Shown here piece by piece: positions 7,716-54,678 of a DNA stretch of 64,000 bases. A program made the translations under genes and the position numbers. This DNA is from an uncultured Bacteroidales bacterium (lineage in GTDB: Bacteria; Bacteroidota; Bacteroidia; Bacteroidales; UBA932): contig CAMJHF010000015.1 in the NCBI GenBank assembly GCA_946405435.1, positions 1 through 64,000 on the forward strand, read 5' to 3'. Within the stretch, counting starts at the first letter, position 1, and each line of letters starts with the position of its first letter. A model generated the notes under the pieces. The model was not told where the DNA came from. It worked only from the letters and a program-made list of their open reading frames with translations, and made no database searches.

Positions 7716-8653
7716 TGAGACGATATATTTTTCTGCTGATAATGCTGCTGCCGGTGGTCTCGTGCAGCCAGATGATAGTGCCGGAGCCCGCAGGTGCCGA
7801 CAGGATACTGTGCCTTAATGCGAGACTCTATACGGCTGATACTTTGCATACTGTGTCGGCCTGCTACGGCTGCCGGACTGGCGTAGAGCCTGCACCGGGG
7901 ACCGTGGTGGTGTGTTTTGTGAACGGCGTCCGGGTGGATGAAGAGGTGGCCGACTCGCTCGGAGACGCGCAGCTCCGTGCCCGGATTGAGCCGGGCGATA
8001 CTGTATGCGTTACTGCGGATGCTCCGCTTGCGCCATACGTCAGCGCCAAAACGGTGGCTCCTCTCCCTCCTGTAATCGGGCATGCCGGTATAGCCTTGAT
8101 CGACGGATCTCACCAAGTATGCCTGCAAGTGGCGGACAATTCTCCCGAAGAGGATTATTTTGTCGTAAAACTCTACGAGGACGTCCTGATATATAACCAG
8201 GACGGCGGCGAAGTCGTGCTGCATGAAAGGACCGGGGCGCAGGTCCGGGGAGAACAAGGGCGTGTGTTCAGCGACCATGCCTTTGCGGGGGCGGCCAAGA
8301 CAATGAATATCAGTTGCGACAGTAACAGATATTCTTACTTGTACAAGCCCTATGGCTCTTATGATTATGAAGTTAGCGAGAAACAGCGGTTTGCGCTCGA
8401 GACGTCGATGCGCCTGCGTCTGTGCTCCCTGTGCGCCGAGGACTATTGGACGTCATTCCTGCTTTCCGGCGACACCTGGGACGGATTTGAGAATCCCCTG
8501 GACCAGATAGGCAGCGCCATGGTATATCCATGCAACGTCGACGGCGGCGCAGGCCTTGTGGCAGTGCGCAGTTGTGCGGAAGTAGTGCTCCCGTATGCAG
8601 AAGTCATCATGGACGGTTCAGGGCGCATGCTGTCCGACCGCTACTTGTTCTGA
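7715..8653 (+). CDS. DUF4249-like lipoprotein
   Basis: Lipobox LLPVVSCSQ; downstream partner position after a TonB receptor; overall layout typical of DUF4249. Confidence 0.7.
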   Translation: MRRYIFLLIMLLPVVSCSQMIVPEPAGADRILCLNARLYTADTLHTVSACYGCRTGVEPAPGTVVVCFVNGVRVDEEVADSLGDAQLRARIEPGDTVCVTADAPLAPYVSAKTVAPLPPVIGHAGIALIDGSHQVCLQVADNSPEEDYFVVKLYEDVLIYNQDGGEVVLHERTGAQVRGEQGRVFSDHAFAGAAKTMNISCDSNRYSYLYKPYGSYDYEVSEKQRFALETSMRLRLCSLCAEDYWTSFLLSGDTWDGFENPLDQIGSAMVYPCNVDGGAGLVAVRSCAEVVLPYAEVIMDGSGRMLSDRYLF

Positions 8654-10731
8654 AACACTTCAAAGAATTCCGGGAAACTCTTAGCCACGCAGGCAGTGTC
8701 GTCGATGTCTATGGGGCCGTCGGCGCCCAGTGAGGCGAGGGCGAGGGCCATGGCCATGCGATGGTCGTGGCGGGAGGTGTAGGCGCCGCCCTTGAGCAGC
8801 CGGCCGCTGAGCAGCCTGCTCGAGAGGCTTTCGCCCTGAACCACCAGTATGTCGCCGTCGGCATAGGTCTCCACGCCGGCCTGCCGGAGCATTTCTATGA
8901 TAGCCGCAGCGCGGTCGGACTCTTTGCCGGCAAGCCTTCCCAGGCCTGCGAGGCGGCTTTCGCCGGCGCAGAAGGCAGCCAGCACCGCCACCACGGGGAA
9001 GAGGTCCGGGGCGTGGTTGAGGTCGAAAGAGAAGGCGTCCAGGGGGGCCTTCCTCACGCAGACAGTGCCGTCCTCCATCTGCGAAACGATGGCTCCCGCC
9101 TCCACCAGCACGTCGATGATAGCTATGTCGGCCTGTATGGACTTCATGTCCAGGCCGTCTATCTCTATGCTGCCGAAAATTGCGCCTGCGGCGAGGAAAG
9201 CCGCCGCTGCGCTCCAGTCGGCCTCGATTCCCAGGTCGGCTGCCCTGTAGTGCTGGCCTCCGCGCACCTTGAAGTTTATGCCGGTGCAGGCGCTCCAGTC
9301 TTCTTCTTCGAGCATGCGGGCGTCACCCTCCATTTCGCTGCGGGTGCCGATGCCGAAGTGCTTTAGCACGTCGAGGGTTATGTACATGTAGGGGAGGCTC
9401 TTGGGGTTGCTGACATGCAGCTCGCTGTCTTTCGCACACATCGGGAGTGCCATGAGCAGGCCGGATATCAGCTGTGAGCCGCTTTCGCCGTTGACCTCGG
9501 CGTTGCCCGGGATAAGGCGTCCGCGTACGGTCAGGGGCACGTGTATCTGACGTCCGGAGCTTTCGTCCAGATTGCTGATGAGCACGCCGAAAGCGGCCAT
9601 TATGGACGCGGCTTCGTTCATGGGGCGCCGAGTCAGGGTGCCGTAGCCCTCGAGGGCGAACGGAGCGCCGTTTATAGCCGAGAGCACGGGGATGGAGAGA
9701 CGGGCCAGGAGTCCGGACTCGCCCACGTTGAGCAGTTCCAGGCCGAGGTCCTGGTCGGCCGGTCCTATTCCGGTTATAATGAGCGTGCTGCCGTCTTGCT
9801 GTACGTCGGCTCCGAGGGTGCGTGCCGCCTGAAGTGCTGCCTCGCTGTCTTCGCAGGGGGTGTAGTCGAAGAGGTGTGAAGTGCCCTCGGAGAGTGCCGC
9901 GGCGAGTATTGCCCGCTGGGCGAAGCTCTTGGAGGCCGGCATCCGGATAACTTTGCGGCGGAAAGGTTTGAGCTTGCCGTATAGGGTTTCGGCGAGCGCC
10001 GCGGCAACCGGCTGGCCGGGGGCGGTGGCCTCATCTTCGCTCAGGGCGGCATAGGTGAATGGAGCTCCACGCCTGAGGCACTCGGTGCGTGTGCTCCGGC
10101 CTTCTTCGCCCATGCCGAAGGCGATCAGGCGGCCCTGTAGGGAGTCTACGTTCTCCAGGATTATGCTGTACAGGGCCTCAATGCGTGCGGCGTCCTCCGG
10201 GGAGTGGCAGGTGGTGACTATCTTGGCTATGTCGGCGCCGTAGCGGAAGCATCTGGCAAGGGCGATCTGGAGGCCTTTTTCGTCGGGCGTGCCTTCAAAA
10301 TCGTGGTGCGAACGTATGAGGGAAGTGCCGCACTCCCGGCAGAGTTTCTGGAAGCGCCGGCTGAACTCGGCGGGGGCCTCGATTTCGAGGTCGGCGTAGC
10401 GGGCACCGGCCTGAACGGCGAGGGTCAGTTTCCGTTCCGCTTCGGCCCAGCCACAGGCTGGACCAAAGTTATCCCCCTGCACCCCCGGGGGACAAGGGGA
10501 GGGTTCCCCTTGAACCCCTCTGTCGCTGCGCTCCGAACTGCGGGCCGGTAAAGGTCCTGCCGCCTGCACCCGGCATGTAGCCACGAGAGGAATGTCGGTC
10601 TGGCTGAAAAGTTCTTCGATTTCGCTGTCGCCGAGCTTGCAGCTGTCGAGGCGTATCTCGGCCATCTCCAGCTGCGGCAGCAGCTCCATTATCTCATGGA
10701 AAGTCTTGTGTTGTAGGCTTGTGCAAATCAT
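8641..10731 (-). CDS. aroD-aroA: Fused type I 3-dehydroquinate dehydratase / 3-phosphoshikimate 1-carboxyvinyltransferase, with in-frame repeat insertion
   Basis: N-term AroD-like (RSHHDFEGTPDE, KIVTTCHSPEDAARI); C-term EPSPS (MPASKSFAQRAILAAAL, NVGESGLLARLSIPVL, ESDRAAAIIEMLRQAG). Confidence 0.9.
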   Translation of the reverse strand: MICTSLQHKTFHEIMELLPQLEMAEIRLDSCKLGDSEIEELFSQTDIPLVATCRVQAAGPLPARSSERSDRGVQGEPSPCPPGVQGDNFGPACGWAEAERKLTLAVQAGARYADLEIEAPAEFSRRFQKLCRECGTSLIRSHHDFEGTPDEKGLQIALARCFRYGADIAKIVTTCHSPEDAARIEALYSIILENVDSLQGRLIAFGMGEEGRSTRTECLRRGAPFTYAALSEDEATAPGQPVAAALAETLYGKLKPFRRKVIRMPASKSFAQRAILAAALSEGTSHLFDYTPCEDSEAALQAARTLGADVQQDGSTLIITGIGPADQDLGLELLNVGESGLLARLSIPVLSAINGAPFALEGYGTLTRRPMNEAASIMAAFGVLISNLDESSGRQIHVPLTVRGRLIPGNAEVNGESGSQLISGLLMALPMCAKDSELHVSNPKSLPYMYITLDVLKHFGIGTRSEMEGDARMLEEEDWSACTGINFKVRGGQHYRAADLGIEADWSAAAAFLAAGAIFGSIEIDGLDMKSIQADIAIIDVLVEAGAIVSQMEDGTVCVRKAPLDAFSFDLNHAPDLFPVVAVLAAFCAGESRLAGLGRLAGKESDRAAAIIEMLRQAGVETYADGDILVVQGESLSSRLLSGRLLKGGAYTSRHDHRMAMALALASLGADGPIDIDDTACVAKSFPEFFEVFQNK
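10440..10520 (-). repeat. In-frame palindromic repeat element inside aroD-aroA
   Basis: Coding strand GGGGTTCAAGGGGAACCCTCCCCTTGTCCCCCGGGGGTGCAGGGGGATAAC matches the copy at 53488-53538; followed by inverted repeat CTTTGGTCCAGCC-TGT-GGCTGGGCCGAAG. Confidence 0.85.
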
Positions 10732-10814: not shown

Positions 10815-10898
10815 GCCCGAGTGGCGGAATGGTAGACGCGATGGACTCAAAATCCATTGTCCTTTAAAGATGTGCGGGTTCGAGTCCCGCCTCGGGCA
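10815..10898 (+). tRNA. tRNA-Leu (anticodon CAA)
   Basis: GCCCGAG/CTCGGGC acceptor, anticodon loop CTCAAAA, GGTTCGAGTCC T-arm, long variable arm; CCA not encoded. Confidence 0.96.
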
Positions 10899-10983: not shown

Positions 10984-11290
10984 CTCGCGCCCGCCGGGCG
11001 CTACTACGTAGACCCATCCCCAAACCCCTTCCCTCGGGGAAGGGACTTAGTCGGCGCAAGCGCCTCCGGAATCCGGCCATTGCGGCCGGGCCTTTTCGGG
11101 CCCGAGGCGGGACGCTGCTGTCGGCGCAGGTCCCAGGCCGAGTGCCGATACCGGTCCAGGGGCCTGTACCCCTATGGGCGAAATCGGCCATTTTTGCTTA
11201 TTGGGGTCCACGAAAGCTGCAGGGTATCGTCAATCAGCATCGCGTGCGTCTTTTTAAATGATTTCTACTTCTTACAATGTAGGCAGTTGT
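10984..11290. repeat. Dispersed GC-rich repeat, copy 1
   Basis: First 137 bp (10984-11120) match 15344-15480 base for base on reading; the rest (GATACCGGTCCA...GCAGGGTATCGTC...TTTTTAAATGATTTCTACT) is diverged but collinear. Confidence 0.9.
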
Positions 11291-52974: not shown

Positions 52975-53937
52975 ATGATTGAATTTCCCGACACATCTTG
53001 GAAAGATTATGAGCTGCTGGACAGCGGCAATGGAGAAAAGTTGGAGCGTTTTGGAGCCTATGTGCTGTGGCGTCCCGAACCGAAGGCGCTTTGGGACAGG
53101 AGTCTCCCGCTGACGGAGTGGAACCGCCTTGCCCATACGCGCTTCAAACCCGGGGCCGGTTTCGGCAAGGCCGGCAAGGAAGACAGCGGCACCTGGGAGC
53201 GTCTCCACAAGATGGACGACCAGTGGTGGATACGCTATAATGCCTTTAACCTTCGCCTCGGACTTACGAGCTTCAAGCACGTCGGGGTGTTTCCCGAGCA
53301 GGCGCCCAACTGGGAGTTTATCAGCCGGAAGTGCGCTGGCATGGATCATCCCAAAGTGCTGAATCTCTTTGCCTACACCGGTGCCGCGTCGCTCGCCGCC
53401 CTGGCCGGAGGAGCGGAGGTCACACACCTTGATTCGGTGAAGCAGGTCGTCACCTGGGCCCGCCAGAATCTCGAACGTTCTTTTTCAGGGGGTGTCGGGG
53501 GGAACGCCCCCCGTCCCCTGGGGGTGCAGGGGGATAATAGTCGTCTTCGACAACCCGGTGGCGTATGCCGTTGGGTTGTCGAAGACGCCATGAAGTTCGC
53601 GCGCAGGGAGGCCCGCCGCGGCAATCTCTACGACGGCATCATCCTGGACCCTCCGGCCTACGGTCACGGACCCGACGGCGAGAAGTGGAAGCTCGACGAA
53701 TGCCTATTCGACATGCTTCGCACGGTGGCATCCATCCTCAAGCCTCAGAATTCCTTCGTGGTGTTGAATCTCTATTCCAACGGCTACAGCGCCGCCCTGG
53801 GCGAAACCCTCGTCCGCGAGGCCTTCGGAATTAAAGCAGGTTCTCCTGATGTGACCCTCACATCAGGGGAACTTGCACTGAACGACAGCTTCGGAAAGGT
53901 CCTGCCGCTGTCCATAGTCGTCAGACTCGAAAAATAA
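52975..53937 (+). CDS. Class I SAM-dependent methyltransferase (RlmI-like) with in-frame repeat insertion
   Basis: [41 protein letters not shown]...[40 protein letters not shown]. Confidence 0.9.
53488..53587 (+). repeat. In-frame palindromic repeat element inside the methyltransferase gene
   Basis: GGGGGTGTCGGGGGGAACGCCCCCCGTCCCCTGGGGGTGCAGGGGGATAAT then CGTCTTCGACAACCC...GGGTTGTCGAAGACG (perfect 15-bp inverted repeat). Confidence 0.88.
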
Positions 53938-54028
53938 TCCGATCTCTCTGGCCTACACCATATCCAAGGGTAGCCTGCCAGAAATACTTTTCTCTTTGTT
54001 CAACGAAGAGCGCTTTCACTCTCTTTCC

Positions 54029-54332
54029 GTCGTTTGCGGTCCATCCGCCGGCACCCCAGACGCCGTTTTTGCATGTTTTCGTCGTTTGAGGTCCATTTGC
54101 CAGCACCCCAGACGCCGTTTTCTCGTCTTTTCGTCGTTTGCGGTCCATCCGCCAGCACCCCAGACGCCGTTTTTGCGTGTTTCCGTCGTTTGCGGTCCAT
54201 CCGCCGGCACCCCAGACGCCGTTTTCTCGTGTTTCCGTCGTTTGCGGTACATCCTCCGGCACCCCAGACGCCGTTTTTGCGTGTTTTCGTCGTTTGGGGT
54301 CCATTTGCCAGCACCCCAAGAGACGGTGGTGC
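54029..54332. repeat. 52-bp tandem array, about 5.5 units
   Basis: GTCGTTTG unit starts at 54029, 54081, 54133, 54185, 54237, 54289. Confidence 0.95.
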
Positions 54333-54474
54333 GTAGTTTGAAGGCCGGCGGAGGGGGATGTTTCGGAAAAATGTGCCACCCTCGGCACCATAAGAGGGAG
54401 GGGTCCGCAAGCAGGTATGAGCGTAGCGACTTTTTCCGGAGCATCCCCCACTTTCGACCGAATTTGTCAAAGAA

Positions 54475-54678
54475 GGCAGGAAAAAGCCGAAAACCTGTCA
54501 GGATGTGACACCAGACACTCTTTCTGGCAGGAAAAAGCCGAAAACCTGTCCGGACGTGGTACCAGGCGCTCTTTCTGGCAGGAAAAAGCCGAAAATCTGT
54601 CCGGAGGTGGCAGCGGGCGCTCTTTGTGGCAGAGAAATGCAAAAAACCTGTCCGCAGGCAGCAAACAATGGCTGAACG
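54475..54678. repeat. 51-bp tandem array, about 4 units
   Basis: GGCAGGAAAAAGCCGAAAACCTGTCC unit starts at 54475, 54526, 54577, with a degenerate unit at 54628. Confidence 0.92.

Follow-up and report, generated by a model that had tools for sequence, protein, structure and literature searches.

In-frame insertion of short hairpin elements into conserved genes of a rumen and gut Bacteroidales lineage: a probable mobile family with a palindrome at its 3' border

Introduction

How does one hairpin-rich repeat come to lie, in the same reading frame, within two unrelated protein genes of a single bacterium? The question is raised by a stretch of 64,000 nucleotides (hereafter the window) from an uncultured Bacteroidales genome, in which a first-pass annotation had recognized a palindromic repeat within the AroD half of an aroD-aroA fusion gene, had matched it to a copy in a methyltransferase gene and had likened it, in concept, to the palindromic elements of Rickettsia. 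The analysis described here bears out the core of this proposal, corrects some of its particulars and adds two features that had not been foreseen, namely a palindrome apparently derived from the target at the 3' junction of the insert and the entry of other palindromic families into the same protein loops in related genomes.

The two copies in the window

The match itself is exact. The 18-mer GGGGGTGCAGGGGGATAA is found at 10469–10486 on the minus strand, in aroD-aroA, and again at 53520–53537 on the plus strand, in the methyltransferase gene, the shuffled expectation for the window being 0.10 matches at three or fewer mismatches, and the AroD peptide R-GVQGEPSPCPPGVQGDNFG and the 20-letter methyltransferase peptide share one strand and one frame relative to their respective genes. 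The elements concerned are the following:

8641–10731, minus strand: aroD-aroA fusion gene, host of the insertion (Pfam DHquinase_I, residues 3–250; EPSP_synthase, residues 261–692)
10469–10537, minus strand: full-length element in aroD, TTCGGAGCGCAGCGAC...GTCCCCCGGGGGTGCAGGGGGATAA, translated SERSDRGVQGEPSPCPPGVQGD; AroD of other genomes lacks it
10440–10468, minus strand: 3' junction palindrome of the aroD copy, CTTTGGTCCAGCC-tgt-GGCTGGGCCGAAG
52975–53937, plus strand: class I SAM-dependent methyltransferase gene, host of the second copy (Pfam Methyltrans_SAM)
53486–53540, plus strand: short-form element in the methyltransferase gene, beginning CAGGGGG, lacking the 5' hairpin and ending GGGGGATAATAG; the site is empty in the orthologue L108
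53542–53587, plus strand: 3' junction palindrome of the methyltransferase copy, CGTCTTCGACAACCC (16-nt loop) GGGTTGTCGAAGACG, the far arm being native sequence coding for WVVEDA

The span of 10440–10520 originally assigned to the aroD repeat thus proves slightly short, the element occupying 10537–10469 and the flanking hairpin 10468–10440 of the same insert.

Alignment of orthologues, the check that had been proposed for the claim of an in-frame insertion, yielded empty sites for both genes and indicates that the segment is not ancestral. The element is absent from the AroD of the other genomes inspected, in which the closest sequence at the site is AVCRVQGESAQPNQEDAWAESERLL, and the empty methyltransferase orthologue L108 reads NMERS-GMDGI-RWIVEDAM where the window gene, L109 and L116 carry the element, L109 having an extra copy at another site. 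Judged by these orthologues without the insert, both window copies are insertions. In the AlphaFold model of the window methyltransferase the core is folded and the pLDDT falls below 50 at residues 155–197, which include the insert; this low model confidence is consistent with a flexible loop, and does not in itself prove that the insert is tolerated.

Other repeats occur in the vicinity. Downstream of the methyltransferase gene, at 54022–54654, lie two tandem arrays, one of 5.7 copies with a 52-bp period and the other of 3.5 copies with a 51-bp period, while another hairpin-rich repeat (reverse complement ...GGAGGCGCTTGCGCCGACTAAGTCCCTTCCCCGAGGGAAGGGGTTTGGGGATGGG), likely a sister family of the element, occupies 11010–11130, just downstream of the tRNA at 10815–10898; a repeat similar to the latter adjoins a tRNA at G000:C40:153.

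Spread and anatomy of the family

The search for further copies suggested by the first-pass annotation was productive: the host genome (2.56 Mb, 51 contigs) contains 18 exact 16-mer cores, and 16 of the 101 sampled genomes of the genus carry the core, several of them in 4–18 copies. Within a sample of 349 genomes of the family the core is nearly restricted to this same genus, and the relatives retrieved by protein searches are uncultured rumen and gut Bacteroidales, Candidatus Cryptobacteroides among them. That the similarity might merely reflect coincidence, the low complexity of GC-rich DNA or faulty assembly is suggested by the G-rich core of the element, yet this explanation is practically negligible, for the reversed core pattern, of identical composition, has no match in any of the 101 genomes, compared with up to 18 per genome for the forward pattern, and the same inserts are common to independently assembled MAGs.

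Aligned copies display a constant order, in which a 5' hairpin is followed at times by a second hairpin, then by an inner stem-loop, by the invariant GTCCCCTGGGGGTGCAGGGGGAT and usually by (G/A)TAG. The 5' hairpin conforms to the pattern GGAG-stem-NNN-stem-GAC (e.g., GCGC-GAA-GCGC, GCAC-GAA-GTGC and GACC-GAA-GGTC), whereas the invariant 3' hairpin is CCCCTG-ggggtg-CAGGGG followed by GAT(N)(R)TAG, the RTAG being present 3' of this hairpin in 53 of 83 copies. A short form begins at CAGGGGG and some copies retain little beyond the last hairpin; the 5' hairpin is missing, with the 3' end kept, in about 30 of 86 copies, an asymmetry that is in part an effect of ascertainment since the copies were gathered through their 3' core, so that a fixed 3' end combined with a variable 5' end is suggestive only. 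All the 5' modules of the family found by pattern in the host genome are accompanied by the 3' core, the other matches to the 5' pattern consisting of one variant repeat and two coding sequences that matched by chance.

The inner stem varies among copies and nonetheless remains paired. Since stem registers differ from copy to copy, pairing was evaluated by swapping the 3' arms among copies rather than by counting pairs in fixed columns of the alignment (A1); in the 70 copies considered 99.8% of the positions are paired as opposed to 69.8% after swapping, a level of pairing that none of 1000 shuffles attained. The compensatory change previously noticed between the two window copies therefore extends to the whole set, but the selection on structure suggested by it is not required, since template switching can copy one arm of a stem onto the other (PMC8794818).

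The covariation of the stems, together with the many copies located at the 3' ends of genes, could also be taken as the mark of a selected structured RNA, a regulator or terminator whose coding copies are retained for their function. This explanation appears highly improbable: the stems vary freely between copies, the genes that host copies are unrelated, both orientations occur, and in sister genomes the same sites either stand empty or hold other palindrome families. Moreover, the Rfam covariance models at their gathering score recognize only the tRNA of the window, and none matches the element.

Phage and plasmid records contained no meaningful match to the element. Features of a MITE were likewise sought: a constant terminal inverted repeat was not seen among the copies, and direct repeats of at least 10 nt across the element are found in 13% of the copies and are of variable length, unlike a target site duplication of the MITE type. 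Altogether, the element probably represents a family of short non-autonomous mobile hairpins, of about 45–80 nt, which has spread within one rumen and gut Bacteroidales lineage.

In-frame insertions in conserved genes

Empty orthologous sites were found for aroD, the methyltransferase gene, xseA, bacA and uxaA. Among the genomes searched the double insert in XseA occurs in the host genome only; BacA contains the element in G027, other palindromes in G047 and G004 and neither in G000, G011, G023, G065 and G097, while UxaA contains the element in G011 and G004, a different palindrome in G027 and neither in G000 and G047. Alignment with solved structures places about 50 surplus residues in each of three proteins, and places them exactly at the element, the corresponding segments comprising 64 vs 14 residues in BacA, 58 vs 5 in XseA and 60 vs 14 in MurB. 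Pfam scans and inspection of the translations support additional in-frame copies in QueH, AtpB, ArgC, PBP1C, PrmC, FolC, HemW, an EamA transporter and others.

All but one of the frames of the element are open in 75–97% of the copies, and other sense frames as well as antisense frames are encountered among the coding events. The sense frame S0, which reads PLGVQGD, accounts for about 15 of 22 events compared with approximately 20% expected (binomial p between 1e-6 and 2e-5, a value that is indicative, the events being hand-picked, not fully independent and in some cases possibly of shared ancestry). Accordingly, the identity of strand and frame claimed for the two window copies is correct for these and, as a rule for the family, amounts to a strong bias. 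An ORF (L075) that is likely a spurious antisense frame was left out, and copies in U32, located at or upstream of an uncertain start, were not counted.

At the C-terminal copy of L206 the native frame is not regained, and in G004 about 40 residues of MiaA are missing around an antisense copy, so that this gene may be damaged. The inserts are probably near-neutral passengers of their proteins.

Other palindromic families were observed in the same set of genes. The methyltransferase orthologues L115, L118, L121, L122 and L111 have such families in frame at two further sites, some of them lying between the arms of perfect inverted repeats that are specific to the locus and about 27–33 bp long. 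A repeat with CGAAATGACA or CAGGATGACAG and GAGATTTCTC-like arms (loci L320, L322, L329 and L080) lies in frame in UxaA (G027, L322), BacA (G004, L329) and the AroD loop (G027, L080). Composite inserts, in which an antisense copy of the element precedes another palindromic family (read RGHVN.RGPQAQRSGRDERSEDPG), lie in frame within PrmC, a U32 peptidase and HemW, and a related composite is present in FolC (composite loci L214, L203, L233 and L252).

The palindrome at the 3' junction

A locus-specific hairpin, most commonly with a loop of 4 nt, usually lies directly 3' of the element. A palindrome score of at least 9 is reached at this position by 60% of 86 distinct copies compared with 0.4–1.3% of control windows from the same loci, these windows having replaced a shuffled control that mixed poorly and gave 27% at the same score; for the coding insertions alone the figures are 13 of 23 vs 6 of 207 (p = 4e-11). 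Weak palindromes (score 5–7) also exist, as in MurB and one UxaA.

Within genes, the far arm consists of conserved native sequence, of which the near arm is an inverted copy. At aroD the far arm (10452–10440) is native sequence coding for GWAEAE, the native G011 protein reading WAESE, and the near arm is a near-perfect inverted copy of it (11/13); in UxaA the palindrome is GAATCCGCGGA-gtat-TCCGCGGATTC, coding for FRGFRRADG, and in BacA TGCCGTTGCG-aca-CGCAACGGCA, coding for RNGISFW.

Does the palindrome arise through the insertion or does it precede it? The element might preferentially enter beside hairpins that are already in place, such as terminators or quasi-palindromes of coding sequence, the 3' palindrome then reflecting target preference rather than being a product of the event. 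Many intergenic copies do adjoin terminator-like hairpins or tRNA 3' ends, the hairpin next to an intergenic copy could be a terminator that was there beforehand, and short inverted repeats are frequent at native sites, as exemplified by the empty methyltransferase site, where the only one is a short inner AGCGG...CCGCT. However, this empty orthologue lacks the outer portion of the near arm, comparable hairpins are rare in the control windows of the same genes, and the near arm of the window methyltransferase copy matches native sequence of its own lineage in 15 of 15 nt, although in the related copies at the site a common flank differs, and flank sequence (TAGTCGTYTWCGA) is shared between them and the window copy. 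Target preference as the explanation is therefore doubtful. The last match suggests that the arms of the methyltransferase palindrome are held alike by copying, as template switching is known to do (PMC8794818).

Possible modes of movement

Insertion, we infer, entails fold-back or template-switch copying at hairpins. At the target, a single-stranded 3' end would fold back onto a native mini-stem and be lengthened a short way by self-copying; extension would then switch to the fixed 3' end of the element and proceed toward the variable 5' end, and arm-to-arm template switching might later keep the stems perfect. Copies landing in tolerant protein loops with an open frame persist as in-frame peptides, mostly ...PLGVQGD.... 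A mobile hairpin family with a target-derived 3' palindrome, inserted by fold-back or switching, is the explanation that we favor overall and consider probable; what speaks against it is that no mobilizing enzyme was identified in the analysis and that insertion was never caught in the act.

As to the agent of movement, it is conceivable, if rather doubtful, that the element spreads by being copied from its fixed 3' end onto the folded-back target strand, in a target-primed or template-switch reaction that either dispenses with a dedicated transposase or relies on a reverse transcriptase. The sole reverse transcriptase gene of the host genome (C21:26792) has no evident linkage to the element.

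A more conventional agent would be a resident RAYT (TnpA-REP HUH transposase), the element being a REP and its coding copies ordinary stray insertions. A single-strand DNA transposase is well suited to hairpin elements, the host genome has several Y1/HUH genes, one of which, the Y1_Tnp gene at C8:65392, has two copies of the element 170–271 nt downstream, and the RTAG that follows the invariant hairpin recalls the GTAG tag of REPs. The two neighboring copies made this RAYT, homologues of which are present in 60 of the 101 genomes, a candidate, but the genus-wide comparison was unsupportive: the core adjoins none of the other RAYT loci fetched, those inspected carrying palindromes of their own, and G011 and G027, with 15 and 14 copies, have no homologue of the C8:65392 gene, both being incomplete MAGs, which leaves some room for this agent. 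Considering also that the tag lies 3' of the hairpin instead of 5' as in REPs, mobilization by a RAYT is unlikely.

Three additional RAYT-like HUH genes (L064, L065 and L066, on C12, C16 and C14 of G000) have different palindromic repeats beside each of them, that adjacent to the C14 gene being CTCGGTCCA...TGGACCGAG.

Relation to known palindromic elements

The Rickettsia and Wolbachia palindromic elements (RPE and WPE) are short, lie in frame at tolerant sites of conserved genes and occur as several families per genome, some sites having been struck by different elements (PMC2229807, PMC3767692). The present element shares with them the essential behavior, a palindromic repeat in frame in conserved protein genes, so that the resemblance proposed at the outset is upheld. 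It differs in its host, which belongs to another phylum, in being GC-rich, in having several small hairpins and in its locus-specific 3' palindrome, a feature not described for RPE in the available portions of these reports. The element is best regarded as representing a new family of palindromic elements that code for protein, a family that behaves like RPE without necessarily being one of them.

GTAG- and CGTC-tagged REPs are likewise intragenic in Opitutus terrae and other species (PMC3733652). Like REPs, the element is a dispersed, many-copy hairpin located mostly near gene 3' ends and sometimes in frame within genes, and it possesses, at its 3' border, an RTAG that recalls their GTAG tag; unlike them, it has no GTAG 5' of its palindrome, is longer, has several covarying stems and flanks only one of the RAYT loci fetched.

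Perfect inverted repeats that arise or are kept by arm copying, in coding DNA too, are common to the hairpins generated by template switching (PMC8794818) and to the coding palindromes of Nematomorpha mitochondria (PMC6649704). Unlike in these cases, a dispersed mobile repeat here bears the target-derived palindrome at its end. What is new is the lineage, the number of housekeeping genes struck, the fact that several families compete for the same loops and, at the 3' border, a palindrome derived from the target.

Implications

Most documented cases of palindromes inserted in frame come from intracellular bacteria and a few REP-rich species; here at least some 20 such events are found in housekeeping genes of one Bacteroidales lineage of rumen and gut. 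Annotators of these MAGs should be aware that a low-complexity insertion in a conserved protein may be real mobile DNA. Furthermore, orthologous sites that are empty, filled or differently filled, together with the junction palindrome, make the mechanism of insertion directly testable. Should fold-back copying prove true, every insertion would leave behind a stretch of the host gene copied in inverted orientation, and the spread of palindromes into proteins could be a mutational process.
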